Shown: positions 1,960 to 63,926 of the stretch, in pieces
Layout: each line of letters begins with the position of its first letter
How positions within the stretch are numbered: the stretch's first letter is position 1
Origin: Frigoribacterium sp. PhB24
GTDB taxonomy: Bacteria; Actinomycetota; Actinomycetes; Actinomycetales; Microbacteriaceae
Direction: 5' to 3'
Length of the DNA: 64,000 nt
Assembly (NCBI RefSeq): GCF_003755185.1
Contig: NZ_RKIC01000009.1
Coordinates: forward strand, 558,001-622,000
Translations under genes and position numbers: made by a program
Notes under the pieces: generated by a model
What the model saw: only the letters and a program-made list of their open reading frames with translations
What the model was told of the DNA's origin: nothing
Databases searched by the model: none

Positions 1960-2703
1960 TCACCAGCGGCCGAGCCGCGCGCTCAGGACGGACAGGGCGG
2001 CGGGACCGGCCGTGGAGGTGCGCAGCACGGCGTCCCCGAGGCGCACGGCGCGAGCACCCGCCTCGGTGAGCTGCCGCAGCTCGGCGGGCGACACTCCGCC
2101 CTCGGGACCGACGACGACGACGACGCGGTCGGGCACCGCGCCTCCTGAGGTCAGGTCGACCGTCGTGAGCGCCTGCTCGGCCGACGGTTCGAGCACGAGC
2201 ACGAGATCGCGGGAGGCGCGCTCGGCCAGCTGCCTCGTCGTCGCGAGCCCGGACACCTCGGGTGCCCAGGGACGGATGGACTGCTTGGTCGCCTCGCGGA
2301 CGATCGACGACCAGCGGGTGAGCCCCTTGGCGACCTTGGGGCCCTCCCAGCGGGAGATGCTGCGGGCCGCGGCCCACGGGACGATCTCGTCGACGCCGAG
2401 CTCGGTCGCGGCCTGCACCGCGAGCTCGTCGCGGTCGCCCTTGGCGAGGGCCTGGGCGAGGACCAGCCGCGTCGTCGGCGGCTCGTGCTGCACCACCCGC
2501 GTCGCGAGCAGCACCAGCCGCTCGGGCGCCGCCTCGGTCACCTCGCCCTGGACCACGAGCCCGCGGGCGTTGCCGAGCGTCAGCGCCTCGCCCACCCGGA
2601 CACGGCTGACCGTGACCGCGTGCCGAGCCTCGGAACCGGTCAGCTCGACCGACGAACCGACCTCGGCGCCGGACAGGTCGTCGACCAGGTAGAAGTGCGC
2701 CAC
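1960..2703 (-). CDS. rsmE: 16S rRNA (uracil1498-N3)-methyltransferase RsmE
   Basis: SPOUT-class methyltransferase that modifies U1498 of 16S rRNA with S-adenosylmethionine; 247 residues, normal length. It has an N-terminal PUA-like RNA-binding domain (residues 1-75) and a C-terminal SPOUT fold. The motif VVVGPEGG lies near residue 200, followed by LGDAVLRTSTA, the AdoMet-binding knot. The usual ETA of this last motif reads STA here, a small deviation. The GTG start at 2703 is two bases beyond the dnaJ stop, so it is part of the hrcA-dnaJ transcription unit. Confidence 0.95.
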   Translation of the reverse strand: MAHFYLVDDLSGAEVGSSVELTGSEARHAVTVSRVRVGEALTLGNARGLVVQGEVTEAAPERLVLLATRVVQHEPPTTRLVLAQALAKGDRDELAVQAATELGVDEIVPWAAARSISRWEGPKVAKGLTRWSSIVREATKQSIRPWAPEVSGLATTRQLAERASRDLVLVLEPSAEQALTTVDLTSGGAVPDRVVVVVGPEGGVSPAELRQLTEAGARAVRLGDAVLRTSTAGPAALSVLSARLGRW

Positions 2704-2705
2704 GA

Positions 2706-3821
2706 TCAGAAGTTCAGGAAGCGGTCGCGCAACTTGCCGAAGAGACCCTGCTGGAAGTGCGACAGCTCGGGCGCCTGCGAGCGTCGACCCGCGGCGAACT
2801 TCTCGATCAGCTCTCGCTCTTTGTGGCTGAGCTTGGTCGGGGTGACCACCTGCACACCGATCTTGAGGTCACCTCGTCCCGTGCCGCGCAATCGCGTGAT
2901 GCCTCGATCTTTCACGGTGATGATGTCGGCGCTCTGCGTGCCGGGCTTGATCTCGACCTCGATCTCGCCGTCGAGCCCGGTGAGCGTCGTCGACGTGCCC
3001 AGGACGGCGTCGGCCATCTGCACCTCGAGCGTCGCGAGCAGGTCGTCGCCGTTGCGGCTGTACGTGTCGTGGTGCCGCACCTTGACCTCGAGGTAGAGGT
3101 CGCCGTTCGGGCCGCCGGCCTGACCGACCTCGCCCTGACCCGGCAGCTGGAGCCTGAGACCCGTGTCCACGCCCGCGGGGATGTCGATGGGGATCGATCG
3201 GCGGGCCCGTACGCGGCCCTGCCCTTGACAGGTGGGGCAGGGGTTCGGGATGACGGTGCCGTAGCCGCGGCAGGTGCCGCACGGGCTCGACGTCATGACG
3301 TTGCCGAGCAACGACCGCACGGTGCGCTGGATCTGGCCAGAGCCTCCGCAGATGTCGCAGGTCTGCGGCGAGGTGCCGGGGGCGCAGCACGAGCCGCTGC
3401 ACGTGTCGCAGAGGACGGCCGTGTCGACCTCGATGTCGCGCTGGGTGCCGAAGACGATGTCGTCGAGGTCGACCTCGAGGCGCAGCAGCGCGTCCTGCCC
3501 CCGCTCTCGCCGGCTCCGGGGCCCCTGGCGCTGGCCCTGGCCGCCGCCGCCGAAGAAGGCGTCGAAGATGTCGCCGAAGCCGGCGGCCCCGCCTCCCCCG
3601 CCCCCGCCGAAGCCGGGCTGCGGACCGAGGTCGTAGCGCTCGCGCTGCTGCGGGTCGCTGAGCACGTCGTAGGCGTGCGTCACGTCCTTGAACCGCTCGG
3701 ACGCCTCGGGGCTGGGGTTGACGTCGGGGTGCAGCTCGCGAGCGAGCTTGCGGTACGCCTTCTTGATCTCTTCCGGGGTCGCCTGACGGTCGACTCCGAG
3801 GACGTCGTAATGATCTGCCAC
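2706..3821 (-). CDS. dnaJ: Chaperone DnaJ
   Basis: Hsp40 co-chaperone that stimulates DnaK ATP hydrolysis and delivers unfolded substrates; 371 residues from the GTG at 3821. The J domain holds HPD at residues 31-33, followed by a glycine-rich linker. Four zinc motifs follow ([31 protein letters not shown]), then the two substrate-binding beta domains. In the first zinc motif the last glycine is replaced (CSGSC), but all metal cysteines are present. It follows hrcA by 109 bases. This is the HrcA-linked copy; a dnaK-linked copy is common in actinobacteria but is not in the window. Confidence 0.96.
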
Positions 3822-3930
3822 TGGTTCTCGTCTGCCTCTGGTGTGGTGTGGTGGTCTTCCCGGCGGGGCCGGGCCCGGCGGACCGGGACGGGGGTGGGGG
3901 TCGCGTGACGGCCGGGGCCGCAGGTGTCGG

Positions 3931-5642: not shown

Positions 5643-5672
5643 AGGCGCGACTCCCCCCCGGGAGCCGCGCCT
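5643..5672. terminator. Hairpin terminator between DUF4870 gene and hemW
   Basis: Arms 5643-5655 (AGGCGCGACTCCC) and 5660-5672 (GGGAGCCGCGCCT) pair with one mismatch around a CCCC loop. It lies between convergent genes and can serve both. No clear T-tract follows. The right arm contains one copy of the dispersed CGCGCCTCCT motif (5666-5675). Confidence 0.65.
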
Positions 5673-5744
5673 CCTGCGTTCTGGGCCCGTGCCTCCCGGG
5701 TGCGCCGGCGGCCGAGGGCACGGCACCGTCGGCCGGGCGGCGGA

Positions 5745-6971
5745 TCAGTCGGGCAGGAGGCGCCGCACGACGGCATCGGCCATGAGGCGGCCCTCGCGCG
5801 TGAGGACGACCCGCCCTTGCAGGGCCGGACGCCCCTCGACCCATCCGTCGGCGATGAGGCCGGCGACCGCCTGGCGACCGTCGTCGTCGAGTTCGGAGGT
5901 CGGCAGCCCTTCACGGATGCGCACCCCGAGCAGCACGCGCTCGACCCGACGCGTCTCGTCGTCGAGGGTCTCGCGCCCGGCGGCCGGTGACTCGCCCGCG
6001 GCCATGCGCTGTTGATACGCGGCCGGGTGCTTGACGTTCCACCAGCGGACGCCGCCGACGTGGCTGTGCGCGCCCGGTCCGACGCCCCACCAGTCGTGGC
6101 CCTGCCAGTAGGCCAGGTTGTGTCGCGACCGGTGCTCGAGGCCACGCGACCAGTTGCTGACCTCGTACCAGTCGTATCCGGCCTCGGCGAGCCGGTCGTC
6201 GGCGATCTCGTACATGTCGGCCGCGGTGTCGTCGTCGGGCGTCGGGACCTCGCCGCGCTTGATCTGGCGGGCGAGCTTGGTGCCCTCTTCGACGATCAGC
6301 GAGTAGGCCGAGAGGTGGTCCGGTCGCTGCTCGAGGGCGACGTCGAGCGAACGCCTCCAGTCGTCGAGGGTCTCACCGGGCGTGCCGTAGATGAGGTCGA
6401 GGCTGACGTCGAGCCCGGCGTCGCGCGCCCAGCGGACGACGAACGGGATGCGCTCGGGGTCGTGCGTGCGCTCGAGGGTGGCGAGCACGCTCGGGACGGC
6501 CGACTGCATGCCGAAGCTGACACGCGTGAAGCCGGCGTCGGCGAGCTGCTGCAGGTAGGCGGCGTCCACCGAGTCGGGGTTCGCCTCGGTCGTCACCTCG
6601 GCACCGGGCTCGAGACCCCAGGTGTCGACCATCGCGTGCAGCATCGAGGTGAGATCGCCCGAGGGCAGCATCGTCGGGGTGCCCCCACCGAAGAACACCG
6701 AGGAGGCGCGGCGCGGCGGCAGGCCCGCCTCGCGCAGCACCCGGCCGCCGAGCTCGATCTCGGCGACGGCCTGCCCGGCGTAGTCGTCGCGGCGCGCGCC
6801 CCGCAGCTCGTCGCCCGTGTAGGTGTTGAAGTCGCAGTAACCGCAGCGGACCCGGCAGAACGGCACGTGGAGGTAGACCCCGAAGTTGCGCCTGTCGGCG
6901 TCGATCGCGACGGTCTCGGGCAGGCGTCCGTCGACGGGGGCGGGATCGCCGAGGGGAAGGGCTCCGGGCAC
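5745..6971 (-). CDS. hemW: Radical SAM heme chaperone HemW (formerly called HemN-like)
   Basis: Radical SAM protein of the HemW group, thought to carry and transfer heme to proteins such as respiratory cytochromes; 408 residues. The iron-sulfur motif is CRVRCGYCDF (CxxxCxxC) near residue 40, followed by FFGGGTPTML. The C-terminal HemN-type domain includes the NLAYWQGHDWWGVGPGAHS region. It has the fourth position F after the cysteine cluster typical of HemW. The GTG at 6971 lies two bases beyond the DUF1990 stop, indicating one transcript with it and lepA. Confidence 0.92.
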   Translation of the reverse strand: MPGALPLGDPAPVDGRLPETVAIDADRRNFGVYLHVPFCRVRCGYCDFNTYTGDELRGARRDDYAGQAVAEIELGGRVLREAGLPPRRASSVFFGGGTPTMLPSGDLTSMLHAMVDTWGLEPGAEVTTEANPDSVDAAYLQQLADAGFTRVSFGMQSAVPSVLATLERTHDPERIPFVVRWARDAGLDVSLDLIYGTPGETLDDWRRSLDVALEQRPDHLSAYSLIVEEGTKLARQIKRGEVPTPDDDTAADMYEIADDRLAEAGYDWYEVSNWSRGLEHRSRHNLAYWQGHDWWGVGPGAHSHVGGVRWWNVKHPAAYQQRMAAGESPAAGRETLDDETRRVERVLLGVRIREGLPTSELDDDGRQAVAGLIADGWVEGRPALQGRVVLTREGRLMADAVVRRLLPD

Positions 6972-11785: not shown

Positions 11786-11831
11786 ACCCGGCGACGGTCG
11801 CGGCGGCGACCAGAGGGTCAGGAGGCGCGGC

Positions 11832-12954: not shown

Positions 12955-15315
12955 TCACGGCCCCGGCGCCGCGTGCTCCCGCCAGATCCGCAGGCCGACG
13001 TCGCCGTCCCCACGAGCGACGGGCGTGACCGCGGTCTGACCGGCCTGGTCGCTGCGGACCACGACTCCCCCGCCGTGCCGGACCAGGTCGAGCGCGACGT
13101 CGGACGGGTGCCCGTACGAGTTGTCGGCACCCACGCCGATCAGGCCGACGCGAGCCGACACGCGCTCGTACAACTCGGCGTGCTGGTCCGCGGACCCGTG
13201 GTGTGAGACCTTGACGACGTCGACCGGTCCGAGCCCGTCGCCGCCGTCGGTCGACGAGAGCAGACGACGCTGCGCGGTCTCGCCGAGATCCCCGAGGTCG
13301 AGCAGCGAGAGGCATCCGACCCGGCAGGTCTCGCCGGGGTCGACGCGCAGCACAACGCTGGCGTCGTTGCCCGCCGGGGTCTCGGGAGGCGGCCAGAGCA
13401 GCCGCCACGTGAGGTCACCGAGGCGTCCCCGGATGCCGCCCTGCGCCTCCTGGATCTGGGCACCGCCGTCGCGCAGCGCCGTCACGACCTCGGTGTCGTC
13501 CGAACGCCCCACGGGCCCGACGAGGGCCGTGCCGACCCGGCCGACGACGGAGCCGACCGCCCCGACGTGGTCACGATCGAAGTGGGTGAGCACGAGCAGG
13601 TCGACGTGGCGCACGCCGAACGTCGAGAGGCATCGGTCGAGGGCGGCCTCGTCGTCGCCCACGTCGATCAGGGCGACCGCCGGACCGCTTCGGACGAGCA
13701 CGGCGTCGCCCTGCCCCACGTCGCACTGGGCGACGACCCAGCCGTCGGGCACGGAGGCGCGGGTCGCCAGGGTGCGCCCGCTCACGACCCCGACGGTCAC
13801 CACCAGGACGCTGACGAGCAGCGTCGTCGTGACCGCCCGCGTGCGACCCCGGGCCCGCGCGACCACCGCGACGACGACCAGCGCCGTCAGGCACACCAGG
13901 GAGGCGACGCCCGGCACCGAGGCGTCCCAATGGAGTCGGGTACCCGGCCACGTGGCCGCGGATCGGGCCACGGCGGCCACCCAGGACGAGGGCAGCCACG
14001 AGACCCAGGCGGCCACCGCCGCCGCCCCGGGCACCGAGGGCGCGAGAACGCAGGCGACGAGCCCGCCCAGGGTGGCCCCCGGAGCCGCGGGGCCGGCGAG
14101 CACGTTCGCCACGACGCCGTGCAGGGCGATGCTCGGTTCGAGCGCGAGCAGCACGGGTTGACAGGCGAGCTGCGCTGCCGCCGGCACGGCGAGGCCCGCC
14201 GCCACCGGTTCGGGCACGAGGCGCGACAGCAGGGTGGTCAGCGGACCACCGATCACCACCAGACCCGCCGTCGCGAGGACGGACAGGACGAAGGCGAGGT
14301 CGCGCGCCAGCCAGGGGTCGACGAACAACAGCCCGGCGACCGCCAGCGCGACGACGGGCACGCCCCCGATCGGCCGGGCGACGGCGAGGTGCACGAGCAC
14401 GAGCACGGCCATGACGGTGGCCCGGACGATGCTCGGCTCGGGCGTGACGAGCACGACGAACGCGACGAGGACGGCGACGGCCAGCGCGAGTCGCATCAGG
14501 CGAGGCAGCCTCAGCAGCGACCCGACGAACATGACGAGCGCGACGAGGACGGCGCAGTTGGAGCCGGACACGGCCGTCAGATGGCTGAGCGACGCTGCTT
14601 TCATGTCGATGTCGAGATCGTCGGGCACGCCCGAGGTGTCGCCGATCGCGAGGCCCGGCAGCAGGGCCCCGCCGTCCCCCGGCAGGCGCGCGGCGACGGT
14701 GCGGAAGGACGACCGCAATCCGTTCGACCACGCCGACGTCCCCCGGGGCTCGGCCCGGACGCCGAGCGGCCCGACCGCACCCCCCTCGAACGCGACCGAC
14801 TCGCCGTACCTCACGGGGCCCAACACGAGCCGGGCCGAGACCCGGGCGCCGATCTCGACCGGGTCGCGCCCCTCGAGTCGGGCACCGAACACCCGCACCG
14901 GCACCCGGGACCCGAGTGCCACGGCCCCCTGGCCGACATCGACCCGGTCGACGGACACCGTCGTCACGTCGGCCCGCCCCTCGACCCGGTCGAGCAGGCG
15001 CCCCTCGACGGTGATCGCGTGCCCGACCGACGATGTCAGACCCGCAGGGTGACGGCGGTCGTCGCGCACCGCCGCCTGAGCGGTGAGCCCGGCGCAGGCA
15101 CCGGCGCTGAGGGCGACGACCAGCAGTATCCGCCCCGCGGCCAGGACGCCCACCCGCGCCCCGACCACCAGTCCGACCGCGACGACGCACACCACGAGGG
15201 CCGCCCCAGCCACGACGGGCAGCAGCCCCGGCCGGATCGAACCCGCGGCGAGACCGGTCCAGGCCACGGCCACGGGTACGCCGAGCCGCAGGTCGAGGAC
15301 GCGACCCGGCGTCAC
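12955..15315 (-). CDS. comEC: ComEC/Rec2 competence protein
   Basis: Polytopic membrane channel that takes transforming single-stranded DNA across the membrane; 786 residues. Order: N-terminal helices and DUF4131 region (residues 1-200), the Competence domain with many helices (SHLTAVSGSNCAV and the SIVRATVMAVLVL region, residues about 230-500), and a C-terminal metallo-beta-lactamase-like domain (LTHFDRDHVGAVG, then VVKVSHHGSADQH). All domains are intact. The GTG at 15315 overlaps the comEA stop (GTGA). Whether this organism is competent is not shown. Confidence 0.93.
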   Translation of the reverse strand: MTPGRVLDLRLGVPVAVAWTGLAAGSIRPGLLPVVAGAALVVCVVAVGLVVGARVGVLAAGRILLVVALSAGACAGLTAQAAVRDDRRHPAGLTSSVGHAITVEGRLLDRVEGRADVTTVSVDRVDVGQGAVALGSRVPVRVFGARLEGRDPVEIGARVSARLVLGPVRYGESVAFEGGAVGPLGVRAEPRGTSAWSNGLRSSFRTVAARLPGDGGALLPGLAIGDTSGVPDDLDIDMKAASLSHLTAVSGSNCAVLVALVMFVGSLLRLPRLMRLALAVAVLVAFVVLVTPEPSIVRATVMAVLVLVHLAVARPIGGVPVVALAVAGLLFVDPWLARDLAFVLSVLATAGLVVIGGPLTTLLSRLVPEPVAAGLAVPAAAQLACQPVLLALEPSIALHGVVANVLAGPAAPGATLGGLVACVLAPSVPGAAAVAAWVSWLPSSWVAAVARSAATWPGTRLHWDASVPGVASLVCLTALVVVAVVARARGRTRAVTTTLLVSVLVVTVGVVSGRTLATRASVPDGWVVAQCDVGQGDAVLVRSGPAVALIDVGDDEAALDRCLSTFGVRHVDLLVLTHFDRDHVGAVGSVVGRVGTALVGPVGRSDDTEVVTALRDGGAQIQEAQGGIRGRLGDLTWRLLWPPPETPAGNDASVVLRVDPGETCRVGCLSLLDLGDLGETAQRRLLSSTDGGDGLGPVDVVKVSHHGSADQHAELYERVSARVGLIGVGADNSYGHPSDVALDLVRHGGGVVVRSDQAGQTAVTPVARGDGDVGLRIWREHAAPGP

Positions 15316-15998
15316 ACCCGCACCCGATCGCGGAGCTTCTCGAGCGTCTTCGGTCCGATGCCCGGCACCCCGAGGAGGTCGTCGACGCTCCGGAAGCGCC
15401 CGTTGTCGTCGCGCCAGGACAAGATCGCCGCCGCGGTCGCCGGCCCCACGCCGGGCAGCGTCCGCAACGCCGCGTCGTCCGCGAGGTTCAGGTCGACCGT
15501 CCCGCCGTCGCCGGCTCCACCCCCGGTCGCCGTGCCGTCCGTGGCCGCGCCTCCGCCAGCCGTGACCCCGTCGTCCACGGCCTCCCCCACGGCCGGCACC
15601 CGCAGTTGCTCGCCGTCGACCAGCACCCGCGCCAGGTTCACCGCCGCCTGGTCGGCATCCGCCGTGAACCCGCCGGCCGCGGAGACCACGTCGATCACGC
15701 GCGCGCCGAGGGGCAGCTCGAACAGCCCGGGTGAAGCGACCTGACCGTGCACGTGCACGAAGACGACCGGGTCACCCCCGGGAGGCGCGGTGCCGGCCCC
15801 CGCCCCGGCATCGGCCCCGGTGCCCGACTCGACGGACACGAGCTCGTCCGCCGCGCCTCCTCGGGTGGCGAACGCCGACACGGCGACGCTCACCGCCAGC
15901 ACGACGAAGAGCAGGACGACGACCGCGCCGAGCCCCACGCGCCACCTCGGACCGCCCGGCTCGGACGGGTCGACGGCGGTGCGGAAGCTGACGGTCAT
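15312..15998 (-). CDS. comEA: ComEA-type DNA-binding protein
   Basis: Membrane-anchored DNA receptor that passes DNA to ComEC; 228 residues. A single helix lies at residues 22-44, then a glycine- and alanine-rich linker, an SLBB-like domain (VFVHVHGQVASPGLF), and a C-terminal helix-hairpin-helix pair (LRTLPGVGPATAAAI and LLGVPGIGPKTLEKL). The ATG at 15998 lies eight bases after a minus-strand TACGGT, so it may be nearly leaderless. First gene of comEA-comEC-holA. Confidence 0.92.
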   Translation of the reverse strand: MTVSFRTAVDPSEPGGPRWRVGLGAVVVLLFVVLAVSVAVSAFATRGGAADELVSVESGTGADAGAGAGTAPPGGDPVVFVHVHGQVASPGLFELPLGARVIDVVSAAGGFTADADQAAVNLARVLVDGEQLRVPAVGEAVDDGVTAGGGAATDGTATGGGAGDGGTVDLNLADDAALRTLPGVGPATAAAILSWRDDNGRFRSVDDLLGVPGIGPKTLEKLRDRVRV

Positions 15999-18831: not shown

Positions 18832-20256
18832 TCACGACATGCGCACCGGGGCCCCGTCGGCGGCCCGGACGCCGAGCACGGCGAGGAGGGCCGCCGCTTT
18901 GAGCTCGACCTCGTCCCGCTCGTCGACCGGCGTCGACGAGATCGTGATGCCGCCGCCCACCCCGACGCGCGCCCCGGCCGGTCGCGCGGGCCGTCCCCCG
19001 GTCGCCGACCGGGCACCTTGCACGACGATCGTCCTGATGGTCATGGCCAGGCTGGCCGAGCCGTCCCGACCGAGCCAGCCGACGGCGCCCGAGTACACGC
19101 CCCGCGGCGCCCCCTCGAGGTCGGCGAGCAGCTCGACGGCGCGACGTTTCGGGGCGCCGGTCATCGACCCGGCCGGGAACGCCGCCTCGACGACGTCGGC
19201 CGCCGTGCGCCCCGCCGCGAGCCGGGCCCTGACCGTGCTGACGAGCTGATGGACGTGCTCGTACGAGTGCACGGCGAGCAGCTCGGACACCTCGACCGTG
19301 CCGAGTCGGGCCACCCGGGCGAGATCGTTGCGGACCAGGTCGACGATCATGACGTTCTCGGCGCGCTCCTTCTCGCTCTCGACGAGTTCTCGCGCGAGCG
19401 CGGGGTCGTCGGCGCCCGACCCGCGGCGTCGCGTGCCCTTGATCGGCGACGACGACACCAGACCGTCGGTCGTCACCTCGACGAACGACTCGGGCGACGC
19501 CCCGACGACGGCGACGTCGCCGAGGCGTACGAACGACGCGTACGGTGCCGGCGAGGAGCGCCGGAGGCGCGCGAAGGCCTCGAGCGCGTCCACCGGCCCG
19601 ACGACGTCGACCGCCGTGGTCAGGCAGAGCTGGTACGCCTCGCCGGCCGCGATGGCGCGGCGGCAGCGCTCGATCAGGTCGAGGTACTCGTCGGGACGGT
19701 GCCGCCAACGCACGTCGGCCGGAGAGGACTTGGACGAGGAGGCGCGGATCGGCCCGGGCGCCGGGGGCTCGAGCGGCACGTCGGCCCAGGCCTCGGCCAG
19801 CGAGGGGGCCCACGGGTCGCCGGCACGGGCCACGGCCTCGACGGACCGTGCGGCGTGGTCGAAGACCAGGGCCCGGTCGACGTCGAGCAGAGCGAGGTCG
19901 GGGGCGTCTCCGGCGGCGGCGACGGTGGAGGCGGTGGCCGCCGGGCGATGTCCCTCGGTGGCGTCGCGGTCCAGCAGCCGGCAGCCGAATCCGTAGCCGA
20001 GCCAGCCGGCCCAGCCGAGCGGGTGGCTGTCGGGTTCGACGTCGACCAGGTCGTCGCGCACCGCTTGCCATAGCCTGTCGGCGCCGCCGTCGCGGAAGTC
20101 ACCCGTCGCGGCCCGACCCCACCCGACGATCGAACGCCCGCCGACGGCGTCCACGCCGGCGTCTCGCCAGACCACGTCACCCGTCGCGGCCAGGTGCCGG
20201 ACGACGGATTCGGGGTCGCGCCACGGCAGGGAGGATCGGACGACCGCGGGGCGCAT
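18832..20256 (-). CDS. pabB: Aminodeoxychorismate synthase component I
   Basis: Converts chorismate plus ammonia to 4-amino-4-deoxychorismate for folate synthesis; 474 residues. The chorismate-binding domain shows SSPIKGTRRRG, ERAENVMIVDLVRNDLAR, FPAGSMTGAPKRRA and GVGGGITISS. The lysine of PIKG is the mark of PabB rather than TrpE (which has an alanine there). A glutamine amidotransferase partner (PabA) is not encoded here. Start ATG 20256, seven bases after a minus-strand TAGGAT. It is divergent from pabC across only 32 bases. Confidence 0.9.
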   Translation of the reverse strand: MRPAVVRSSLPWRDPESVVRHLAATGDVVWRDAGVDAVGGRSIVGWGRAATGDFRDGGADRLWQAVRDDLVDVEPDSHPLGWAGWLGYGFGCRLLDRDATEGHRPAATASTVAAAGDAPDLALLDVDRALVFDHAARSVEAVARAGDPWAPSLAEAWADVPLEPPAPGPIRASSSKSSPADVRWRHRPDEYLDLIERCRRAIAAGEAYQLCLTTAVDVVGPVDALEAFARLRRSSPAPYASFVRLGDVAVVGASPESFVEVTTDGLVSSSPIKGTRRRGSGADDPALARELVESEKERAENVMIVDLVRNDLARVARLGTVEVSELLAVHSYEHVHQLVSTVRARLAAGRTAADVVEAAFPAGSMTGAPKRRAVELLADLEGAPRGVYSGAVGWLGRDGSASLAMTIRTIVVQGARSATGGRPARPAGARVGVGGGITISSTPVDERDEVELKAAALLAVLGVRAADGAPVRMS

Positions 20257-20288: not shown

Positions 20289-21116
20289 ATGAGTGCCGAG
20301 CGGCCGCGAGGCGACGTGCTGCACGTCTGGCAGGGCGACGAGCTGTCGACGGGTGGGAGCGAGGCGGGGGTCGAGGCCGACCCGCGCCTCCTGGTCGCCG
20401 ACTCGTGGCTGGTCGACGACGGCTCGGTGCTCGCGCTCGACGTGCACCGCGATCGGTTCGCCGGCTCGGTCGCCGGGGTGCCCGCCGGGCCCGACGCGGA
20501 CGAGGTCTCGGCGTTCTGGGCCGCCACCGTCGCGACGCTGCCCCGGACGGGAGCATGGTTCCCCCGGGTCGAGCTCGTCGCCGGCGACGCGGGCGACCGG
20601 CCCGGGCGCGCACGGCTGCAGCTGCGCCTCCGCCCCGCTCCCCCGCGCCGTCGCTCGGCCGTCCTCGCCACGGCCGCACGTGATCCCCGCACGCAGCCCA
20701 CGGTCAAGGGCCCCGACCTCGCGACCCTCGGTTCGCTCGTCGCCGAGGCCAGGGCCCGGGGGGCCGACGAGGCCGTGCTGCTCTCGCCCGAGGGCCACGT
20801 CGTCGAGGGCGCCTGGAGCTCGATCGTCTGGTGGCGTGGCGACGCCCTCTGCCTGCCCGCGGACGACCTGCCCCGCCTGCCGGGCGTCACGGTCCGCAGC
20901 CTGACGACCTTGGCCGCCGTCCTCGGCGTCGACGTGTTGCACGACCGCACCCGGCCGGACGAGCTCGACGGGTTCGAGGTCTGGAGCCTCGGCGCGTTGC
21001 ACGGCATCCGCATCGCCACCGGCTGGATCGACGGCCCGGCTCCGGCCGAGGAGCCCGGACGACTCGCCCTCTGGCGTGCGCGACTCGATCGTCTGCGTCG
21101 ACCGATCGACGCCTGA
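20289..21116 (+). CDS. pabC: Aminodeoxychorismate lyase-like class IV aminotransferase
   Basis: PLP enzyme of fold type IV, 275 residues. The context next to pabB suggests 4-amino-4-deoxychorismate lyase (release of p-aminobenzoate and pyruvate). TQPTVKGPDLATLGSL supplies the likely PLP lysine (residue about 139), followed by GADEAVLLSPEGHVVEGAWSS, matching the family's E-G-x-x-S/T-N region but ending in WSS in place of the usual TSN. Function as lyase rather than as branched-chain aminotransferase rests on the pairing with pabB. Confidence 0.78.
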   Translation: MSAERPRGDVLHVWQGDELSTGGSEAGVEADPRLLVADSWLVDDGSVLALDVHRDRFAGSVAGVPAGPDADEVSAFWAATVATLPRTGAWFPRVELVAGDAGDRPGRARLQLRLRPAPPRRRSAVLATAARDPRTQPTVKGPDLATLGSLVAEARARGADEAVLLSPEGHVVEGAWSSIVWWRGDALCLPADDLPRLPGVTVRSLTTLAAVLGVDVLHDRTRPDELDGFEVWSLGALHGIRIATGWIDGPAPAEEPGRLALWRARLDRLRRPIDA

Positions 21117-21149: not shown

Positions 21150-22889
21150 TCAGTCGTCGGAGTCGGCTGCCTCGTCGAGGGCGACCTCGACGTCGCGCAG
21201 TCGGCCGGACTCGACGCGCACGCGCCGTGTGACCAGCTCGGCCGGCACCTCGACGTGCGAGATGACGACCACCGTGGACCCGTCGTCCCGGGCCGTCGTC
21301 AGGACGTCGAGGACGAGCCGGCGGGCGGTCTCGGGGTCGAGGCCCGCCGTGGGCTCGTCGAGGATCAGCACCGGGAAGCCCCGCAGGAGGGCTCGGGCCA
21401 ACGAGATGCGCTGGGCCTGACCGCCCGAGACGAGGACTCCCCGCTCGCCCAAGGGAGCGTCGAGCCCGCCGCGCCCTGCGGCCCAGTCGCCCAGCCCGAC
21501 GCGGTCGAGCACGGCCAGGAGATCGTCGTCGGTGGCCGTGTCGCGGGCGAAGAGGAGGTTCTGTCGCAGTGACTCGTCGAAGAGGTACGGGGTCTGCTCG
21601 ATCAGGCCCACCGCGGCCCGGACGGCGGCCGGGGCGAGGGTCGCCGTGTCGACTCCCCCGACCTCGTAGCGTCCGGTGTGTTCGACGAACCGGGCGAGCA
21701 CCGAGGCCAGCGTGGTCTTGCCGGCGCCGCTCGGCCCCTCGACCACGACGCGGTCGCCGACGGCGACGTCGAGGTCGACGCCACGGAGGGCCGGGCCCGC
21801 CGCACCGGGCCACGTCGCCGAGAGGCCCCGCAGACGCAGGGCCGACACGGGCGTCCGCGACGCGCCGACGAGTGTCCGCGTCATCTCGGCCCCGTCGGCC
21901 GCCGACCCGCCGACGGCCTCGTCGTCGACGACCCCCGCGGGAACGACGGCGGGCACCGCGGACTCGACGCGGTCCCCGCTCGCGCGGACCCGCCGCCAGG
22001 CCAGCACGGCCGTCGGCACGGCGCCGACGACCTCGAAGACGGCGAGCGGCACGAGGACCACCAGTGCGACGGCCGGGCCGGTCAGTCCCCCCGCGGCGGC
22101 GTCGGGCGCGACGACGGGGATCGTGGCGAGCGCTGCGGCACCGGACAGCGCCGAGAGGACGGCCGCGACGACGCCTCCGGTCAGGGCCCGGCGCGAGGAG
22201 GCGCGGCGCAGGTCGTCGTCGAGCCCCGCGACCCGGCCGAGCTGCCGGTCCACGGCCTCGAACGCGACCAGCACGTCGAGGTTCTGGACGAGGTCGACCA
22301 CCGCGGCCGAGAGCGCACCACGCTTCTCGGCGAGGACGTGCTCGCTGCGGCGCGCGAGGCGGTCGGCGGCCACGCAGCCGACGCCGAACGCCAGGACGAG
22401 CGCGCCCGCCAGGACGACGGCGGCCTGCGGGGACACGAGAGCGACGCCGACCACGGCGACGACGGAGGTCAGGCCCGACACCACGAGGGGCTGCACCACC
22501 CGCAGGGGAAGGTCCTGCAACGCGTCGACGTCGCCGACGACGCGCGCGAGCAGGTCACCACGATCCGTGCGACCGAGACCCGCCGGGGCCACGCGGACCA
22601 GTCGCCGGTACAGCTCGGTGCGGACCACGGCCAGCTGACGGAAGGCGGCATCGTGGCTGGACAAACGCTCGAGGTATCGGAAGACCGCCCGGGTCAGGGC
22701 GAACGCGCGGACGCCGACGACGGCGAGCGAGAGATAGAGGATCGGCGGCTGCTCGGCCGCCCGCGTGATCAGGTACGCGGACGCCGCGAGCAATGCGACG
22801 GCCGACAGTGCGCTGAGCGAGCCGAACACCAGGCCGGGGGCGGCCCGGCGTGCGTCGGGCTGAGCCGCGCGGAGCAACGAACGGTTCAC
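21150..22889 (-). CDS. cydC: Thiol reductant ABC exporter CydC
   Basis: One half of the CydDC ABC exporter that moves cysteine/glutathione-type thiols out and is needed for cytochrome bd assembly; 579 residues. An ABC transmembrane domain with six helices (residues about 15-310) is followed by the ATPase: GPSGAGKTT (Walker A), VSGGQAQRISLARAL (signature), VLILDEPTAGLD (Walker B). The GTG at 22889 overlaps the cydD stop as GTGA. Last gene of cydABDC; the tail is acidic. Confidence 0.92.
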   Translation of the reverse strand: MNRSLLRAAQPDARRAAPGLVFGSLSALSAVALLAASAYLITRAAEQPPILYLSLAVVGVRAFALTRAVFRYLERLSSHDAAFRQLAVVRTELYRRLVRVAPAGLGRTDRGDLLARVVGDVDALQDLPLRVVQPLVVSGLTSVVAVVGVALVSPQAAVVLAGALVLAFGVGCVAADRLARRSEHVLAEKRGALSAAVVDLVQNLDVLVAFEAVDRQLGRVAGLDDDLRRASSRRALTGGVVAAVLSALSGAAALATIPVVAPDAAAGGLTGPAVALVVLVPLAVFEVVGAVPTAVLAWRRVRASGDRVESAVPAVVPAGVVDDEAVGGSAADGAEMTRTLVGASRTPVSALRLRGLSATWPGAAGPALRGVDLDVAVGDRVVVEGPSGAGKTTLASVLARFVEHTGRYEVGGVDTATLAPAAVRAAVGLIEQTPYLFDESLRQNLLFARDTATDDDLLAVLDRVGLGDWAAGRGGLDAPLGERGVLVSGGQAQRISLARALLRGFPVLILDEPTAGLDPETARRLVLDVLTTARDDGSTVVVISHVEVPAELVTRRVRVESGRLRDVEVALDEAADSDD

Positions 22890-24532
22890 GAGGCCCCTCC
22901 GATCGCGACGACGACGTCGGCGGCGTTCCTGACGGCACGGCGGTGCGTGACGACGACCACCGCGACGCCCGTGGCCGCGATGCGTCGGAGCCCCGCCACG
23001 ACCCGGGCCTCGGTGACCGGGTCGAGCGCCGACGAGGGCTCGTCGACCAGCAGGAGGCGCGACCCCACCCGATCGAGTCGGTACAGCGCCCGGGCCACCG
23101 ACACCCGTTGCGCCTGTCCACCGGACAGGCCCTGGCCGCCGGCCCCGAGCACGAGCGCCGGGTCGAGGCCCGCCGCACCGGCCAGGTCGAGGGCCCGCAC
23201 GACGGCCTCGGTGTCGGGCTCGCGCGTGTCGCCGAGAGCGACGTTCTCGGCCACGGTGCCGGACGACAACAGCGGGGACTGCCCGGACCAGGCGATCTCG
23301 TGGCGCGTCGGGGCCCGCCCCGACGACCGCCAGACGACTCGACCCTCGCACGGTTCGAGCCCCAGCACGGCGTCGAGCAGGGTGGACTTGCCGGCACCGC
23401 TCGGGCCGACGACCGCCGTGACGCGACCCGTCTCGGCGACGAGCGAGGTCTCGGGCAGCCGCACCGCGCCTCCTCGGCTCACCGAGACGCGGTCGACGAC
23501 GAGCGCGTCGCCCTCGGCGCGGGGCTCGTGGTGACCGGCGGCCACGGCCGACCCGGTCGGCCGAGGTGCGACGTCGCCCTTCTCGTCTTCCAACAGCTCG
23601 AAGACGTCGTCCGCCGCCGCGACCCCGTCGGCTGCGGCGTGGTAGTTCGCGCCGACCTGGCGCAGGGGCAGGTAGGCCTCGGGTGTGAGCAGCAGCACGA
23701 ACAGTCCGGCGGTGAGCCCCATCGAGCCGTCGACGAGCCGGATGCCGATCGAGACGGCGACGAGCGCGACCGACAACGACGCCGCCAGCTCGAGCACGAA
23801 GCCGCTGAGGAACGACACGCGCAGCACCTTCACCGTCTCGACCCGGTAGTCGTCGGTGATGCTACCGATCCGCTCGACCTGGCGCCGCTCACGACCGAAC
23901 GCCTTGAGGGTCGACGCCCCGCCGACGGCGTCGGCGAACGACGAGGCGAGGTGCGTGAGGCGGTCCCACTGGCGCGTCTGGGCGGCACGGGTGGTCCATC
24001 CGATCAGCACCATGAAGACGGGGATCACGGGCAGCGTCAGCACGACGATCAGGGCCGAGACCCAGTCGTGCAGGGCCATGACGACGACCAGCGACGGCGT
24101 CGCCAGGGCCGTGAGCACGAGCTGGGGCAGGTACCGGGCGAAGTACTCGTCGAGGGCGTCGAGTCCGGGGCCGACGAGGGTCGCGACCCGGGCCGACGAA
24201 TGCCGGTCGACCCAGGCCCTCCCGCGGTCGGCGACCGCGCGGACGACCCGGGCCCGCAGCTGGCTCTTCACCCGGGCCGCGGCCCGCGCGGACGTCACCT
24301 CGAGCGCCCACGCCACGAGCGACCGCACCGCCACCGAGACGCCGAGTCCGACCAGGGCGGTCGCGAGTCCGTCGGTGGCAGGCCCCTCCACGACCCGGAC
24401 CACGGCCGTCGTCGTGAACCAGGCCACGGCGACGATCGAGACGGTCTGCACGAGACCGAGCACGGCCCCGAGCCCGAGGAACACCCGGGCGGCGGAGGCG
24501 TAGCGCAGGAGGCGCGGGTCGAGCGGTCTCAC
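22886..24532 (-). CDS. cydD: Thiol reductant ABC exporter CydD
   Basis: The partner of CydC, 548 residues. ABC transmembrane domain, then Walker A GPSGAGKST, LSGGQAQRVSVARAL and LLLVDEPSSALD. I start at GTG 24532 (VRPLDPRLLRY), ten bases beyond cydB; longer readings run into the cydB end. Three copies of the dispersed CGCGCCTCCT motif fall in this gene (23052, 23465 and 24507), the densest cluster in the window. Confidence 0.92.
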   Translation of the reverse strand: MRPLDPRLLRYASAARVFLGLGAVLGLVQTVSIVAVAWFTTTAVVRVVEGPATDGLATALVGLGVSVAVRSLVAWALEVTSARAAARVKSQLRARVVRAVADRGRAWVDRHSSARVATLVGPGLDALDEYFARYLPQLVLTALATPSLVVVMALHDWVSALIVVLTLPVIPVFMVLIGWTTRAAQTRQWDRLTHLASSFADAVGGASTLKAFGRERRQVERIGSITDDYRVETVKVLRVSFLSGFVLELAASLSVALVAVSIGIRLVDGSMGLTAGLFVLLLTPEAYLPLRQVGANYHAAADGVAAADDVFELLEDEKGDVAPRPTGSAVAAGHHEPRAEGDALVVDRVSVSRGGAVRLPETSLVAETGRVTAVVGPSGAGKSTLLDAVLGLEPCEGRVVWRSSGRAPTRHEIAWSGQSPLLSSGTVAENVALGDTREPDTEAVVRALDLAGAAGLDPALVLGAGGQGLSGGQAQRVSVARALYRLDRVGSRLLLVDEPSSALDPVTEARVVAGLRRIAATGVAVVVVTHRRAVRNAADVVVAIGGAS

Positions 24533-27811: not shown

Positions 27812-27857
27812 CCCGCGCCTCCTCGTCCTCGCCCTGCGGGCGGGGTCCCGGACGACG

Positions 27858-44700: not shown

Positions 44701-45197
44701 ACTTCTCGATCGACGACTCCGACTCGGTGCCGACCGGCACGCCCGACGTCGGTGTCCGACAGAGGGTCAGCGACGAGCTCGACATCTTGTCGATGGAGGT
44801 CAGCGAGCACGTGATCGAGAGCTACCGTCCCATGCTCGACGATCTGGGCGTGGTCCGCGCCGCCGACCTGCGCGACCACTGGAACGGCACGACCGTGCTC
44901 GTGGCGGGCATCCGCATCGCGACCCAGACCCCGCCGATGCGCAGCGGGAGACGCGTCGTCTTCATCAGTCTCGACGACGGCAGCGGCTGCTCCGACTCCA
45001 CCTTCTTCGACGAGGCCCAGGCCCGCGCCGGCTCCCTCCTCTTCGGCACGCAGCTGATGCTGATCCAGGGGCGCACGCGTCGCACCGGCGAGCGCGGCAT
45101 CTCGCTCGAGGCTGAGAACGCGTGGGACCTCAAGGCGATGTGGCGCGACTGGAACGCGACCCGCGCCTCCTCGTCCCTGGCCGTCGACAATTCCTGA
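41748..45197 (+). CDS. dnaE2: Error-prone DNA polymerase DnaE2 (ImuC)
   Basis: C-family polymerase for damage-induced mutagenesis, 1149 residues. It starts FTHLRVASAFS: where replicative DnaE has HLRVHS, the second His is Ala, so the PHP site is degenerate, as is usual in DnaE2. The palm triad is LPDIDIDVE (residue about 440). Then finger blocks (GMFQIESPGQRE, ISLFRPGPMKGNM), SFGFCKAHGAAFA, and an OB fold (GTTVLVAGIRIATQTPP). No beta-clamp partner gene nearby. A perfect LexA box lies upstream. Confidence 0.93.
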   Translation: MSFTHLRVASAFSAHHGTAHPKALVDAAVTAGADAAAITDRDGLYGAIRHVGACRTAGIDPIVGVELGCRDDRDEVVGGGGAGVGGGGVDRIVVLAHGARGGGPAKAGWAALCRLISASHGRATRRASGSANSVATIARSRVRGFVQGETEPAATVLLGPDSDVGRLVQAGRHGEAAASLADWAATLPGGVVVEVVCHLTEPGESRSIRHAARMLELADHVGVPAVLTNAVRYLDPDEAVTADVLDSAGHLAALGSFRPQPNAQAYLKSPVDMRRLARLVSDASSLPRSAGDEMLAATERLADRCRIDPVADLGWGRPKVPELSAIGVDGDPDQALFQRAEAGVTERFGDADRSLRQKVEERMRYELGIITGFGFAGYFLTVADVSALMRDLRVRNAARGSGAGSLVTYLLRISNVDPIEHDLLFERFLGNKRETLPDIDIDVEAARRHEVYRAIFDRYGSNRVTLMSMQSTYRGRGAVRDAGLALGLDDEQIDLVAKNVWRSNARDLRTAMVEKPELREIAELARSNDQIDLLVDLSERLDRLPRHISMHPCGVILGDSDLLSTTPVQPSGIGLPMSQFDKYDMNDAGLLKLDVLGVRMQSSLAYALDEIERVNGPRAALAGALPVDVPYVNRQGRIELDEIPHDDEPTFEAIRTTHTLGMFQIESPGQRELIGKMQPDRYEDLIADISLFRPGPMKGNMIAPFLDTKHGFQQPDYLHPSFASFLDDSYGVVIYHEHVLRILEATMQVSLAEADEIRRHMGKGDDDALEATFRERTRGNLDPETGRRRFDDAAVDRIWAALKGFGSFGFCKAHGAAFALPTYQSAWLKTHYPAEFLAGILTHDPGMYPKRLLLTEARRMGVPVLPLDVNASTDVYRVERLRPPATPIAPTRVGDLGLRLSLADVHGISDAELARVVVNRPYDSITDFWQRATPSRSLFERLAQVGALDSVAGPGRTRGDVLARVRALTGRSSRPRATDVENQLDFSIDDSDSVPTGTPDVGVRQRVSDELDILSMEVSEHVIESYRPMLDDLGVVRAADLRDHWNGTTVLVAGIRIATQTPPMRSGRRVVFISLDDGSGCSDSTFFDEAQARAGSLLFGTQLMLIQGRTRRTGERGISLEAENAWDLKAMWRDWNATRASSSLAVDNS

Positions 45198-46668: not shown

Positions 46669-46829
46669 CCCGCGCCTCCGGCCCCGCACCCGCCGATCGG
46701 CCACGAGGTCACAGCAGACCCCCATGCGGCGCCCTTCCCCGTGGCCACGTGCCGCCGTACGCTGACAGCACCACGGCGACGACGCCGCACCACGGACGCC
46801 TCGCCCCGATCGACGACGATGGGTGCCCG

Positions 46830-48080: not shown

Positions 48081-48250
48081 CGCGCCCGTCGTGCCGCGCG
48101 CCTCCGCGACCCGCGACCCGCGCTCCGTGCCTCTAGTCCTCGCCCGGGTCCCGGACCGCGCAACCCGATGCAACCTGCCCCGACGTAGCCTGCCGCCATC
48201 GGCGGGCGACCCCCGCCGCCGACCCGACACCGTCGTCGAAAGGGACCGTC

Positions 48251-50224: not shown

Positions 50225-50866
50225 TCAGTCGGTCGGCGGGTGGGGCAGGGCGTAGGTGCCGTGCCCCACCCGTTCGATCACTCCCTGCCGGGCCAGGACA
50301 CTCAGCGTGGACAGCACGCTGCTGCGTCGGTAGTCGGGCAGGGCGGCGACGATCTCGGTGGTGCGCCGCGCACCGTCCCGCAGCACCTCGGGCACGCGGG
50401 CGGCCAGCGAATCGCCGACGGGTGCGGCCGTCGGGGCGACGTCCGTCGGGTCGCCGGCCCGCGCCTCCTGGTCGTACTCGGCTCGAGCCTGGTCGAGGCC
50501 CTCGGCCGAGACGCGGGTGGTCGAGCCGTCCGCGCCGGAGGCGTGCGCGTACGGCGCGAGCGTCAGGGACCGACCGACGCGGGCGTAGACGGCCGAGGCG
50601 CTGGTGCCCTGGTGTTCGGCGATCTCGGGATACGACGCACCGCCGAGCAGCAACACCGCCTCGCCCTCGAGCCCGAGCCACTGGCCGAGGCTCGCGATCT
50701 CCCAGCCGGCCGCCGTCACGGCCGAGCCCCAGACCTCGATGTCGTCGGCGTGGTCGGTGGTGAGCGTCTTCAGGTCGTCGAGCAGGTCGAGCAGGCGTTC
50801 ACGGGCGTCGTCGACGATCTCGGCCGTGAACTGCGGCGGGCGGCGAAGTTTGATCGGTCGTGACAT
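50225..50866 (-). CDS. Unrecognised protein with two predicted helix-turn-helix regions
   Basis: 213 residues from ATG 50866. I do not recognise the family. Residues 15-70 are helical and acidic ([18 protein letters not shown], then [15 protein letters not shown]). [20 protein letters not shown] looks like a helix-turn-helix near residue 85, and [35 protein letters not shown] form a winged-helix-like C-terminus. Convergent with the DUF779 gene and divergent from rplU. A TAGTCT hexamer seven bases before the ATG predicts a leaderless mRNA. It is probably a DNA-binding protein. Confidence 0.7.
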
Positions 50867-58470: not shown

Positions 58471-58677
58471 TCACTGACGGAAACGCCGCGGCCGTCTGGA
58501 CCACACGCGATCGAGCCCGCGCCGCACGCGCGGCAGCAGCACGACGAACGACGAGACCACCACGAGCACCCCGAACGACACCCCGAGCCAGAGCGGTACC
58601 GGCGACATCGCCTGGTCGCCCGCAGGGTACAGCGGCGTCGGCGACGTCAACAGGACGAGGAGGCGCGGCTCGGTCAC
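58471..58677 (-). CDS. Small membrane protein coupled to the SDR-DUF2867 gene
   Basis: 68 residues from GTG 58677, which overlaps the SDR gene's stop as GTGA. One hydrophobic helix (LWLGVSFGVLVVVSSFVVLL) followed by a basic tail (PRVRRGLDRVWSRRPRRFRQ). Not recognised; may anchor a partner to the membrane. The overlap and clean helix support a real gene. Confidence 0.6.
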   Translation of the reverse strand: MTEPRLLVLLTSPTPLYPAGDQAMSPVPLWLGVSFGVLVVVSSFVVLLPRVRRGLDRVWSRRPRRFRQ

Positions 58678-61048: not shown

Positions 61049-61053
61049 CGAGC

Positions 61054-61098
61054 CGAGGAGGCGCGGGTGACGTCGACGACGTGACCCGCGCCTCCTCG
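61054..61098. terminator. Terminator between deoC and ribF, built from two inverted copies of the dispersed motif
   Basis: Arms 61054-61075 (beginning CGAGGAGGCGCGGGT) and 61077-61098 (ending ACCCGCGCCTCCTCG) are complementary with one mismatch around a minimal loop. Each arm carries one exact CGCGCCTCCT (61056-61065 in reverse, and 61087-61096). It can end both deoC (plus) and ribF (minus). No T-run. Confidence 0.85.
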
Positions 61099-61196
61099 TG
61101 GGGGTCGCGCCGTGCACCGCACCGCCGCACGCGCACCGCAGCGCCGCGCACTGCCGCACGCCCGACCGGCACCGCGGGGCGCCGCCTGTCGACGCG

Positions 61197-62138: not shown

Positions 62139-62141
62139 GCG

Positions 62142-62615
62142 CTACCTCGTCGTGCCCGGATCGGTCCGGCGAGCGACCCCCACGGCCCCCGTCCCGTCCG
62201 CCCCGCCGGCTCGGGCGGCGCGGCCCTGCCGACGCAGCCACAGGATGCCGAGCACGGGCAGCACCAGCGGCACGAAACCGTAGCCGCGTCCGAAGATCGA
62301 CCAGACGGTGTCGTGCGGGAACAGCCCGGGGTCGAGCACGGTCATGAGCCCGATGATCAGCACACCGGCGAGCTCGAACGAGATGGTCGCCCAGGCCACG
62401 GCGTACCAGCCCTGACCGGGGGCGATGAGGGCCACCGTGGCGACGATGTAGACGACGGCCGAGAGGGCGCTCAAGGTGTAGGCCAGCGGAGCCTCGGAGA
62501 ACTGGGTCGCGATCTGGAAGACCGACCGGCCGGTGGCGGCGAGGGCGAGGAGGGCGTAGACGGCGATGAGGACCCGGCCGAGACCGACCGCGCGCGTTGA
62601 CTTCTGAGTGACCAT
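62142..62615 (-). CDS. Conserved membrane protein upstream of ribF
   Basis: 157 residues and four hydrophobic helices (about 15-35, 48-66, 72-93, 105-125), then a basic and glycine-rich tail. Actinobacterial ribF operons often hold a similar protein; no function is known. Leaderless start: TATCCT on the minus strand ends seven bases before the ATG. Confidence 0.8.
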   Translation of the reverse strand: MVTQKSTRAVGLGRVLIAVYALLALAATGRSVFQIATQFSEAPLAYTLSALSAVVYIVATVALIAPGQGWYAVAWATISFELAGVLIIGLMTVLDPGLFPHDTVWSIFGRGYGFVPLVLPVLGILWLRRQGRAARAGGADGTGAVGVARRTDPGTTR

Positions 62616-62622
62616 CCCGTCA

Positions 62623-62628
62623 AGGATA
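62623..62628 (-). promoter_or_regulatory. -10 hexamer, leaderless start of the ribF-upstream membrane gene
   Basis: TATCCT on the minus strand, then seven bases, then ATG 62615. Confidence 0.45.
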
Positions 62629-62661
62629 GGACTCCGGCGGGCGCTCCGCCGCCAGGGTGGG

Positions 62662-63030
62662 TCAGAGCCCTTGGACGGTCCAGATCTGGAACATGCGGTA
62701 GACCATCACCGCGATCGCGAAGGACGATGTGGCCAGCACGAGGTTGCTCCACCGGGTGCGGTCCACGAGGGCCCACACCGTGGCGAGCGGCGGGAGCAGG
62801 ATCGCCGAGACGAGGTAGATGTAGAACTCGACGAGGTTGCCGGTCGGCGCGTTCCCGACGAACGGCGCCACGATCGCGACGACGAGTTGCACGAGCAACA
62901 GCAGCAGGACCACGGCGCCCGTGCCGACGGTGATGTCGTCGGGTTGCCGTCTCGCGAAGCAGGCGACGACGCAGACGACGCCCGCCACCACGGCCACCAC
63001 GACCTGCACCCAGGTGAACCATTCGATCAT
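62662..63030 (-). CDS. Conserved membrane protein, truB operon
   Basis: 122 residues, four hydrophobic helices (about 7-25, 37-58, 70-85, 95-112). Not recognised beyond a small actinobacterial membrane protein type. ATG 63030 overlaps the truB stop as ATGA, so it is coupled to truB. Confidence 0.78.
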   Translation of the reverse strand: MIEWFTWVQVVVAVVAGVVCVVACFARRQPDDITVGTGAVVLLLLLVQLVVAIVAPFVGNAPTGNLVEFYIYLVSAILLPPLATVWALVDRTRWSNLVLATSSFAIAVMVYRMFQIWTVQGL

Positions 63031-63926
63031 GCCTGCACCTCGTCGGTCGGAAAGTTAACGATGGGCTTCGCGGCACCGGCACGCACCGACACGAGGCCGG
63101 CGAGCGTGCCCGCCGGTGTCACGGCGGCGACCGGCCCCGGGGTGTCGGCCAGGTCGACGGTGACTCGCTTCCCGTGCCCGAGGTCGACGGTCTCGGCGGC
63201 GGTCATCGACCACGCCGGGAAGAGCGTCCGGGCCACGTCGACGGGAGGGATCAACGCCGGGGCGACGTCGATGCCCTCGAGCACGGAGGCGCGGGTCACG
63301 TCGAACGGCCCCACCCGCGTCCGCCGCAGCGCGGTCAGGTGTCCCCCCACGCCGAGGTCGGCCCCGAGGTCTCGCGCGAGCGCCCTCACGTAGGTTCCCG
63401 ACGAACAGGACACCCGCACGTCGAGGTCGCGGACGGCGACCCCGTCGACCAGCGCGTCGCGTCGTGCGAGCACCGTGAAGTCGGAGATCGTGACGTCGCG
63501 TGCCTTGAGCTCGACCTCGACCCCGGCGCGGGCGAGGTCGTACGCACGACGCCCGTCCACCTTGATGGCGCTGACGGTCGTGGGAACCTGGCTGATCGGC
63601 CCGGTGAGACGCGCGACGCCGGAGTCGACGGCCACGTCGGTGACGTCGCCCGCCGAGGTCGTCGCGACGACCTCGCCGTCGCTGTCGTCGCTCGACGTCG
63701 AGACGCCGAGCCGGATCGTCGCGTCGTACCCCTTGTCGAGGCCGACGAGGAAGGTCAGGAGGCGCGTCGACGAGTTGAGGCCGAGCACCAGCAGTCCGGT
63801 GGCCAACGGGTCGAGGGTGCCGGCGTGGCCGACCTTGCGCGTCCCTGCCGCCTTGCGCACCCGCGACACGACGTCGTGGCTGGTGATGCCCTGCGGCTTG
63901 TCGACGAGGAGGATGCCGCTGTTCAC
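63027..63926 (-). CDS. truB: tRNA pseudouridine(55) synthase TruB
   Basis: Makes pseudouridine 55 in the T loop of tRNAs; 299 residues. GILLVDKPQGITSHDVV is the first block; the catalytic Asp is in VGHAGTLDPLATGLL, followed by YDATIRLG. The C-terminal PUA-like tail is GKRVTVDLADTPGP. GTG 63926 lies six bases after a minus-strand TAACGT, so it has its own leaderless transcript. No rbfA is visible in the 74 bases upstream; those hold only the promoter. Confidence 0.95.
   Translation of the reverse strand: MNSGILLVDKPQGITSHDVVSRVRKAAGTRKVGHAGTLDPLATGLLVLGLNSSTRLLTFLVGLDKGYDATIRLGVSTSSDDSDGEVVATTSAGDVTDVAVDSGVARLTGPISQVPTTVSAIKVDGRRAYDLARAGVEVELKARDVTISDFTVLARRDALVDGVAVRDLDVRVSCSSGTYVRALARDLGADLGVGGHLTALRRTRVGPFDVTRASVLEGIDVAPALIPPVDVARTLFPAWSMTAAETVDLGHGKRVTVDLADTPGPVAAVTPAGTLAGLVSVRAGAAKPIVNFPTDEVQA

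Follow-up and report, generated by a model that had tools for sequence, protein, structure and literature searches.

A strict, genus-specific DNA word in Frigoribacterium genomes as a candidate self-DNA signal

Our data establish that the ten-base word CGCGCCTCCT is a real, strong and genus-specific element of Frigoribacterium genomes. The word recurs throughout a 64,000-nucleotide stretch of Frigoribacterium sp. PhB24 (contig NZ_RKIC01000009.1, positions 558,001 to 622,000; hereafter the window), and the genome to which this stretch belongs (G000, 3,457,365 bases) holds 1,342 copies (662 + 680), about one per 2.6 kb on both strands, and 15 copies of the reversed word. Whole-genome counts were made in 60 genomes: G000, 15 congeners, 21 members of other genera of the family and 23 members of other families of the order. 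All 15 congeners contain 513-1,570 copies; the 44 genomes of other genera contain 0-61, most of them near their controls. The 14-mer CCGCGCCTCCTCGG, counted in 199 genomes of the family, occurs 58-243 times in each of the 4 Frigoribacterium and 0-9 times in the other 195. We tentatively read the word as the core of a signal by which these bacteria could mark self-DNA, and the arguments for and against that reading are weighed below.

The excess is not a product of base composition or codon use. A detailed sample of 464 kb from G000, made up of the window and 20 stretches of 20 kb, contains 183 copies, and Markov models of orders 1-4 expect 2.9-5.3 (3.3 at order 4). Orders 5 and 6, both of which partly contain the word itself, expect 14.5 and 45.6. 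The excess over Markov expectation is about 50-fold for the 10-mer, and for its octamer core GCGCCTCC it is 8-fold. Within coding sequence we counted 121 copies, compared with 14.2 (largest 19) after synonymous shuffling and 8.8 (largest 14) when codon junctions were also preserved, in agreement with the contention of a first-pass annotation of the window that codon use offers no explanation. Neither of the two outcomes that this annotation had named as refuting its observation, a count close to the Markov expectation and a full account by codon pairs, was seen. If mutation and selection are in balance, 183 copies against 3.5 would imply that each copy confers a scaled advantage of about 4.

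All 22 exact copies that the first-pass annotation had picked out in the window are present, 12 on the plus and 10 on the minus strand, and its impression of over-representation was correct: 100 dinucleotide shuffles gave a mean of 0.61 and at most 3. Of the five close variants that it listed, four are instances of CGCGCCTCCG, and the segment at 13434-13444 is no variant at all. The copies lie, as it had noted, in genes in both directions and outside them (12 sense, 5 antisense and 5 intergenic), and all 5 intergenic copies sit between convergent gene ends. The window also carries comEC, which has 85-87% matches in three named Frigoribacterium strains, and comEA. These features are as follows.

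2137..2146, plus strand: motif copy, antisense in the gene at 1960-2703 (minus strand)
5666..5675, plus strand: motif copy, intergenic, between convergent genes
6701..6710, minus strand: motif copy, sense, phase 0 (RASS)
11820..11829, minus strand: motif copy, intergenic, between convergent genes
12955..15315, minus strand: comEC, DNA-import channel, a candidate part of the reading step
13752..13761, minus strand: variant CGCGCCTCCG, within comEC
15312..15998, minus strand: comEA, helix-hairpin-helix DNA receptor, a candidate part of the reading step
15852..15861, plus strand: motif copy, antisense within the comEA gene
19737..19746, minus strand: motif copy, sense, phase 0
20383..20392, plus strand: motif copy, sense, phase 1 (PRLL)
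22196..22205, minus strand: motif copy, sense, phase 0
23052..23061, minus strand: motif copy, sense, phase 1
23465..23474, plus strand: motif copy, antisense, phase 2
24507..24516, minus strand: motif copy, sense, phase 1
27814..27823, plus strand: motif copy, intergenic, 3 bases past a gene end, between convergent genes
32485..32494, plus strand: motif copy, sense, phase 0
38224..38233, plus strand: motif copy, sense, phase 0
40460..40469, plus strand: motif copy, antisense, phase 1
41510..41519, minus strand: motif copy, sense, phase 1
45162..45171, plus strand: motif copy, sense, phase 0, within a DNA polymerase III alpha-type gene
46671..46680, plus strand: variant CGCGCCTCCG
48097..48106, plus strand: variant CGCGCCTCCG
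50460..50469, plus strand: motif copy, antisense, phase 1
58658..58667, minus strand: motif copy, sense, phase 1
61056..61065, minus strand: motif copy in an inverted pair (left arm), 8 bases past a gene end, between convergent genes
61087..61096, plus strand: motif copy in an inverted pair (right arm, partner of 61056)
63284..63293, minus strand: variant CGCGCCTCCG
63757..63766, minus strand: motif copy, sense, phase 1

The element extends beyond the ten bases to about 22 bp, approximately AC.CGACCCGCGCCTCCTCGGC, built around the strict octamer GCGCCTCC. One-mismatch words that differ from the 10-mer at positions 2-9 are near or under background in G000, so recognition of the core is nearly all-or-none; positions 1 and 10 tolerate change. 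The flanks, which the first-pass annotation had thought to agree among copies, do so in outline, as weak information from about -7 to +15 in the G000 sample. The octamer's flanks of 8 bases apiece, which take in positions 1 and 10 of the 10-mer, carry 3.3 bits, compared with 0.25 at one-mismatch words, and even solitary coding copies show a weak flank signal. These flanks were anchored on the core in place of a free expectation-maximization motif search, which drifted to codon periodicity in G016, G019, G022, G023, G024 and G037, returned almost nothing in G017 and was left unused there. Subclades of Frigoribacterium give the same consensus, although G007 has a variant form, as do G001, G008 and G011. 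In G007, C is favored at position 10; in G001 and G011 the variant motif is centered on CGCCTCCT, and position 2 also tolerates change.

In the G000 sample 61 of the 183 copies are intergenic, compared with 11% non-coding DNA, and the 122 within genes occur in all phases (72 sense, 50 antisense). The intergenic share of the 10-mer is 28-50% in G002, G003, G005, G006 and G008 (non-coding 10-16%), and that of octamer words is 10-21% in G001, G004, G007 and G011 (non-coding 8-12%). Copies also lie close together more often than expected, with 9.1% of spacings in G000 at or below 60 bp against 3.5%, and in samples of six genomes 43 of 56 pairs of 9-mers within 60 bp are inverted: 29 of the 35 that are not wholly in one gene and 14 of the 21 that are. 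In the window, a single fold run on the inverted pair at 61056 and 61087 gave a hairpin of -44.5 kcal/mol (z -6.45). We found no replication-arm skew in G000 (+90/-93, heterogeneity p 0.99) and no strand skew in G008, whose single contig was sampled in 14 stretches (41/41, p 0.81); simulated power to detect a 75:25 arm skew was 98%, provided half of the stretches fall on each arm.

A few other features of these genomes were observed in passing. G000:C2:1-20000 contains no copy of the 10-mer and has lower G+C at third codon positions (0.837), and may be an acquired island without the motif; G000:C4:1-20000, with 63% G+C, 40% called coding sequence and 3 copies, is possibly foreign DNA. Poly-G and poly-C octamers are in excess between genes in the G000 sample (61 vs 8.1). 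In 80 kb of G007, the overlapping intergenic words TCGGCAACT, GCAACTCCT and CAGGAGTTG were each counted 7 times where about 0.1 would be expected.

The signatures of the motif are those of DNA uptake sequences and not those of the Escherichia coli Chi site on the same measures. In 200 kb of E. coli, Chi occurs 45 times against 28.9 expected (1.6-fold); none of these 45 sites is intergenic, with 11% non-coding DNA, and 37 are sense and 8 antisense. Chi forms no close pairs, has a skew with p 0.046 and carries 0.75 bits of flank information, and thus differs from the Frigoribacterium motif on each measure. The likeness to the DNA uptake sequence (DUS) dialects of Neisseriaceae and the uptake signal sequences (USS) of Pasteurellaceae lies in a short, clade-specific word in very high genome-wide excess, inside and between genes, in inverted pairs able to form stem-loops and, less clearly, in different words in related groups, for which passages of PMC3630211 on Neisseriaceae offer a comparison; an excess of intergenic copies is a further shared trait. 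The Frigoribacterium motif differs from these systems in belonging to a high-G+C actinobacterium and in its strict 8-bp core. The first-pass annotation had proposed an uptake, recombination or segregation signal or a modification site. An uptake or recombination signal is supported in kind because the words are clade-specific, the core is flanked, copies are in excess between genes and close pairs are inverted. A segregation signal of the type of the FtsK-orienting polar sequences (KOPS), which are likewise octamers in many copies but have strong polarity toward the terminus, was rejected since the motif lacks strand skew. Repetitive extragenic palindromes (REP) and bacterial interspersed mosaic elements (BIME) share with the motif some intergenic inverted pairs, but two thirds of its copies are inside genes, and this candidate was also rejected.

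The motif also differs from the known uptake sequences in being conserved in a clade that appears to lack the type IV pilus. The pilus cluster of G000 sits between rpoC and rpsL, in the RNA polymerase/ribosomal protein region (G000:C4:190001-220000). Its PilT, PilM and prepilin domain score above curated cut-offs and its PilB- and PilC-like proteins below theirs; further genes are, to judge by their position, presumably pilD, pilN and pilO. PilC was found in 13 of the 16 Frigoribacterium. The other three, G002, G003 and G006, lack a match to PilC and to N_methyl pilins (PilB, PilT and PilM were not sought genome-wide), so that a type IV filament does not accompany the motif in every species that keeps it. 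They form one clade (SH-like approximate likelihood ratio test support 100) and differ from one another at third positions by 0.32-0.40. The pilus cluster is missing from its place in G002, where a homologue of orf4680 lies 1.1 kb beyond rpoC, with rpsL next. The corresponding site of G003 matches this scar over 574 bp (89.5%) and includes the stretch found after rpoC in G000, and G006, in which 672 bp were examined, shares a 90-bp stretch of the scar at another distance from orf4680. G002 and G003 probably owe the missing cluster to a single ancestral loss, which could plausibly include G006 as well.

The pilus-less genomes nevertheless hold 1,204-1,492 copies, and one-mismatch words have not built up in them. 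Retention of aligned 9-mers between G002 and G003 is high: 22 of 29 copies in G002 are kept in G003, against 23.6% of 499 control words of the same composition, and 21 of 23 copies in G003 are kept in G002, against 25.2% of 421 control words. Among the 499 copies aligned within the main clade, 399 are retained where 9-mer identity predicts 254. The retention counts given here and below combine related genomes and are not statistically independent. Five 9-mer copies are present in G002 and absent from G003 and from the other genomes in the alignments shown; since just one of them extends to the full 10-mer, we do not rely on gains after loss of the pilus. Because the motif is conserved in this clade, a pilus-read uptake sequence is not enough to account for it, and the plain pilus-read form of the DNA-uptake sequence that the first-pass annotation had suggested is weakened accordingly.

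An uptake sequence read by a pilus does not fit everything, and nor does a Chi site of the textbook kind. We favor, tentatively and at a little under even confidence, a signal that acts after the pilus step. The 10-mer would be the readable core of a self-DNA signal of about 22 bp specific to Frigoribacterium. We envision that a DNA-processing protein prefers fragments bearing the signal, that such fragments would be recombined into the chromosome more often, and that copies would hence spread and be kept in either orientation wherever coding permits. The reader could act at import, where ComEA and ComEC are candidates, or at the processing of linear ends for RecA, where AdnAB or a partner is a candidate. 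A comEC gene is present in 39 of the 40 genomes searched, including all 16 Frigoribacterium. Every one of the 16 Frigoribacterium, pilus-bearing or pilus-less, has an adjacent pair of PDDEXK_1 nuclease-domain proteins of AdnAB type, and RecC was not found in any of the 25 family genomes searched. The G000 pair was matched to solved structures, and its helicase subunit matches 6ppu (E 9e-153), which we take to be mycobacterial AdnAB.

Several observations weigh against a signal acting after the pilus step. The route by which DNA would enter cells of the pilus-less clade is one difficulty: TadE had no match in G002, G003 or G006, with a profile that is weak in Frigoribacterium and also saw nothing in G004, G008, G013 and G015. 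Retention is weaker in comparisons with G006 (3/10, 3/4, 5/10 and 5/12, together 16/36, against 21-23% for controls). In the group of G001, G008, G011 and G012, where the form of the word differs, 24 of 55 copies are kept and 24.9 expected, which is no excess. Between the main and pilus-less clades, 33 of 154 copies are retained and the background predicts 36.5; retention is no better than chance, and sites therefore turn over in the long run. Finally, the octamers that we found in related genera show little or no intergenic excess, with shares of 3-16% against 8-19% non-coding DNA; their kinship to the Frigoribacterium motif is thus unproven, and a codon-context cause is possible for them, above all in G018 and G021.

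Other octamers are over-represented in at least three sister genera, as judged in samples of 40-140 kb. The word GGATGCCG is in excess in G016 (128 vs 16.7), G024 (108 vs 25.2), G023 (88 vs 19.8), G021 (71 vs 21.8) and G018 (59 vs 17.0), GGATGCCC in G022 (95 vs 12.3) and GGATCCTG in G019 (76 vs 7.8). We did not find a clear over-represented word in 40 kb of G017. Against synonymous shuffles the excess in coding sequence is clearest in G016 (111 vs 22), G019 (62 vs 6) and G022 (86 vs 21). Whole-genome counts of GGATGCCG reach 2,906 in G016 and 2,931 in G024, and a two- to fourfold excess of this word over its reverse is common across the order. By eye the sister words, like GGAGGCGC, start with GGA, which may be chance. 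A more far-reaching possibility, which we regard as doubtful, is that genera throughout the Microbacteriaceae use their own self-DNA words, read without any pilus, inside the cell, by the AdnAB machinery or its partners on incoming linear DNA. Such words would be the missing Chi-like signal of AdnAB and would spread by drive, as an uptake sequence does. Two further words were seen in these scans: GTCTCGAAA is also over-represented in G023 (16 vs 0.5 expected), and intergenic words around TCATGCAAT in G037 (12 counts in 140 kb, almost none expected) resemble a repeated intergenic element.

A strict Chi site would be a single-strand octamer that switches AdnAB from degradation to recombination, mainly in the repair of broken forks. 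The motif shares with the Chi sites of RecBCD and AddAB a short, strict core in many copies, and the presence of an AdnAB-type enzyme in every Frigoribacterium searched, together with the failure to find RecC, is consistent with such a role. The passage of PMC4824097 concerned says that it is not known whether AdnAB responds to Chi, and according to the corresponding part of PMC13309787 (2026) the handling of such stages as Chi recognition is unclear. However, the motif lacks arm skew, has a large intergenic share and greatly exceeds E. coli Chi in abundance over expectation, and neither its 22-bp context nor its inverted pairs are, in our judgement, expected of Chi. We consider this explanation unlikely.

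To a similar degree we doubt that the motif is the binding site of a chromosome-organizing or other nucleoid protein with many scattered sites and no strand orientation. The density of sites on both strands, inside and outside genes, and the conservation of copies among close relatives would suit such a protein. The inverted hairpin pairs are not obviously predicted by it, however, and we know of no actinobacterial protein with such a site.

Somewhat less likely still is a DNA uptake sequence of the canonical kind, which a minor pilin of the type IV pilus would recognize outside the cell; the pilus-less clade would then represent a lag. In Neisseria, ComP is the minor pilin that reads the uptake sequence outside the cell. 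The pilus cluster of G000 and the occurrence of PilC in most Frigoribacterium support this explanation, and the uptake sequences of Neisseriaceae, as portrayed in those passages of PMC3630211, resemble the motif in their large excess, their inverted pairs between genes and, less clearly, their dialects. Set against these points are the clade of G002, G003 and G006, the scar that they share wholly or in part, the conservation of copies between G002 and G003, and the lack of a build-up of one-mismatch words. Across genera, moreover, the correlation between motif strength and type IV pili is not clean: G022 has a strong octamer and no PilC match, though one N_methyl match.

An element acting at the level of RNA or expression, either a Shine-Dalgarno site or a terminator hairpin, is very improbable. 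The reverse complement of the motif contains AGGAGG, paired copies can make a strong hairpin, and intergenic copies in G000 favor convergent gaps, which hold 23 of 58 copies but 20% of the intergenic bases, though this is not so in G008 (5 of 35, against 22%). Only 6 of the 183 copies are found in the 20 nt that precede a called start, on which ground the Shine-Dalgarno site was rejected, and most copies are inside genes, 50 of them antisense. Although phase-0 copies encode RAS(S) and phase-1 sense copies (P)RLL, an artefact of codon pairs, protein words or composition is scarcely credible and was rejected, given Markov and synonymous-shuffle expectations far under the observed counts, the intergenic excess and the low counts in other genera.

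In our survey of an open-access library, with preprints outside its scope, none of the papers listed reports a self-DNA signal of this kind in an actinobacterium, and none of those listed for the motif, for competence in Frigoribacterium or for Chi together with AdnAB describes the element. If the reading that we favor is correct, the motif would be a self-DNA signal of the uptake/Chi class in an actinobacterium. It is also a candidate for the sequence response of AdnAB, which the passages of PMC4824097 and PMC13309787 cited above leave as an open question. The pilus-less clade of Frigoribacterium is a natural setting in which to ask whether a pilus is required for such a signal to be read.

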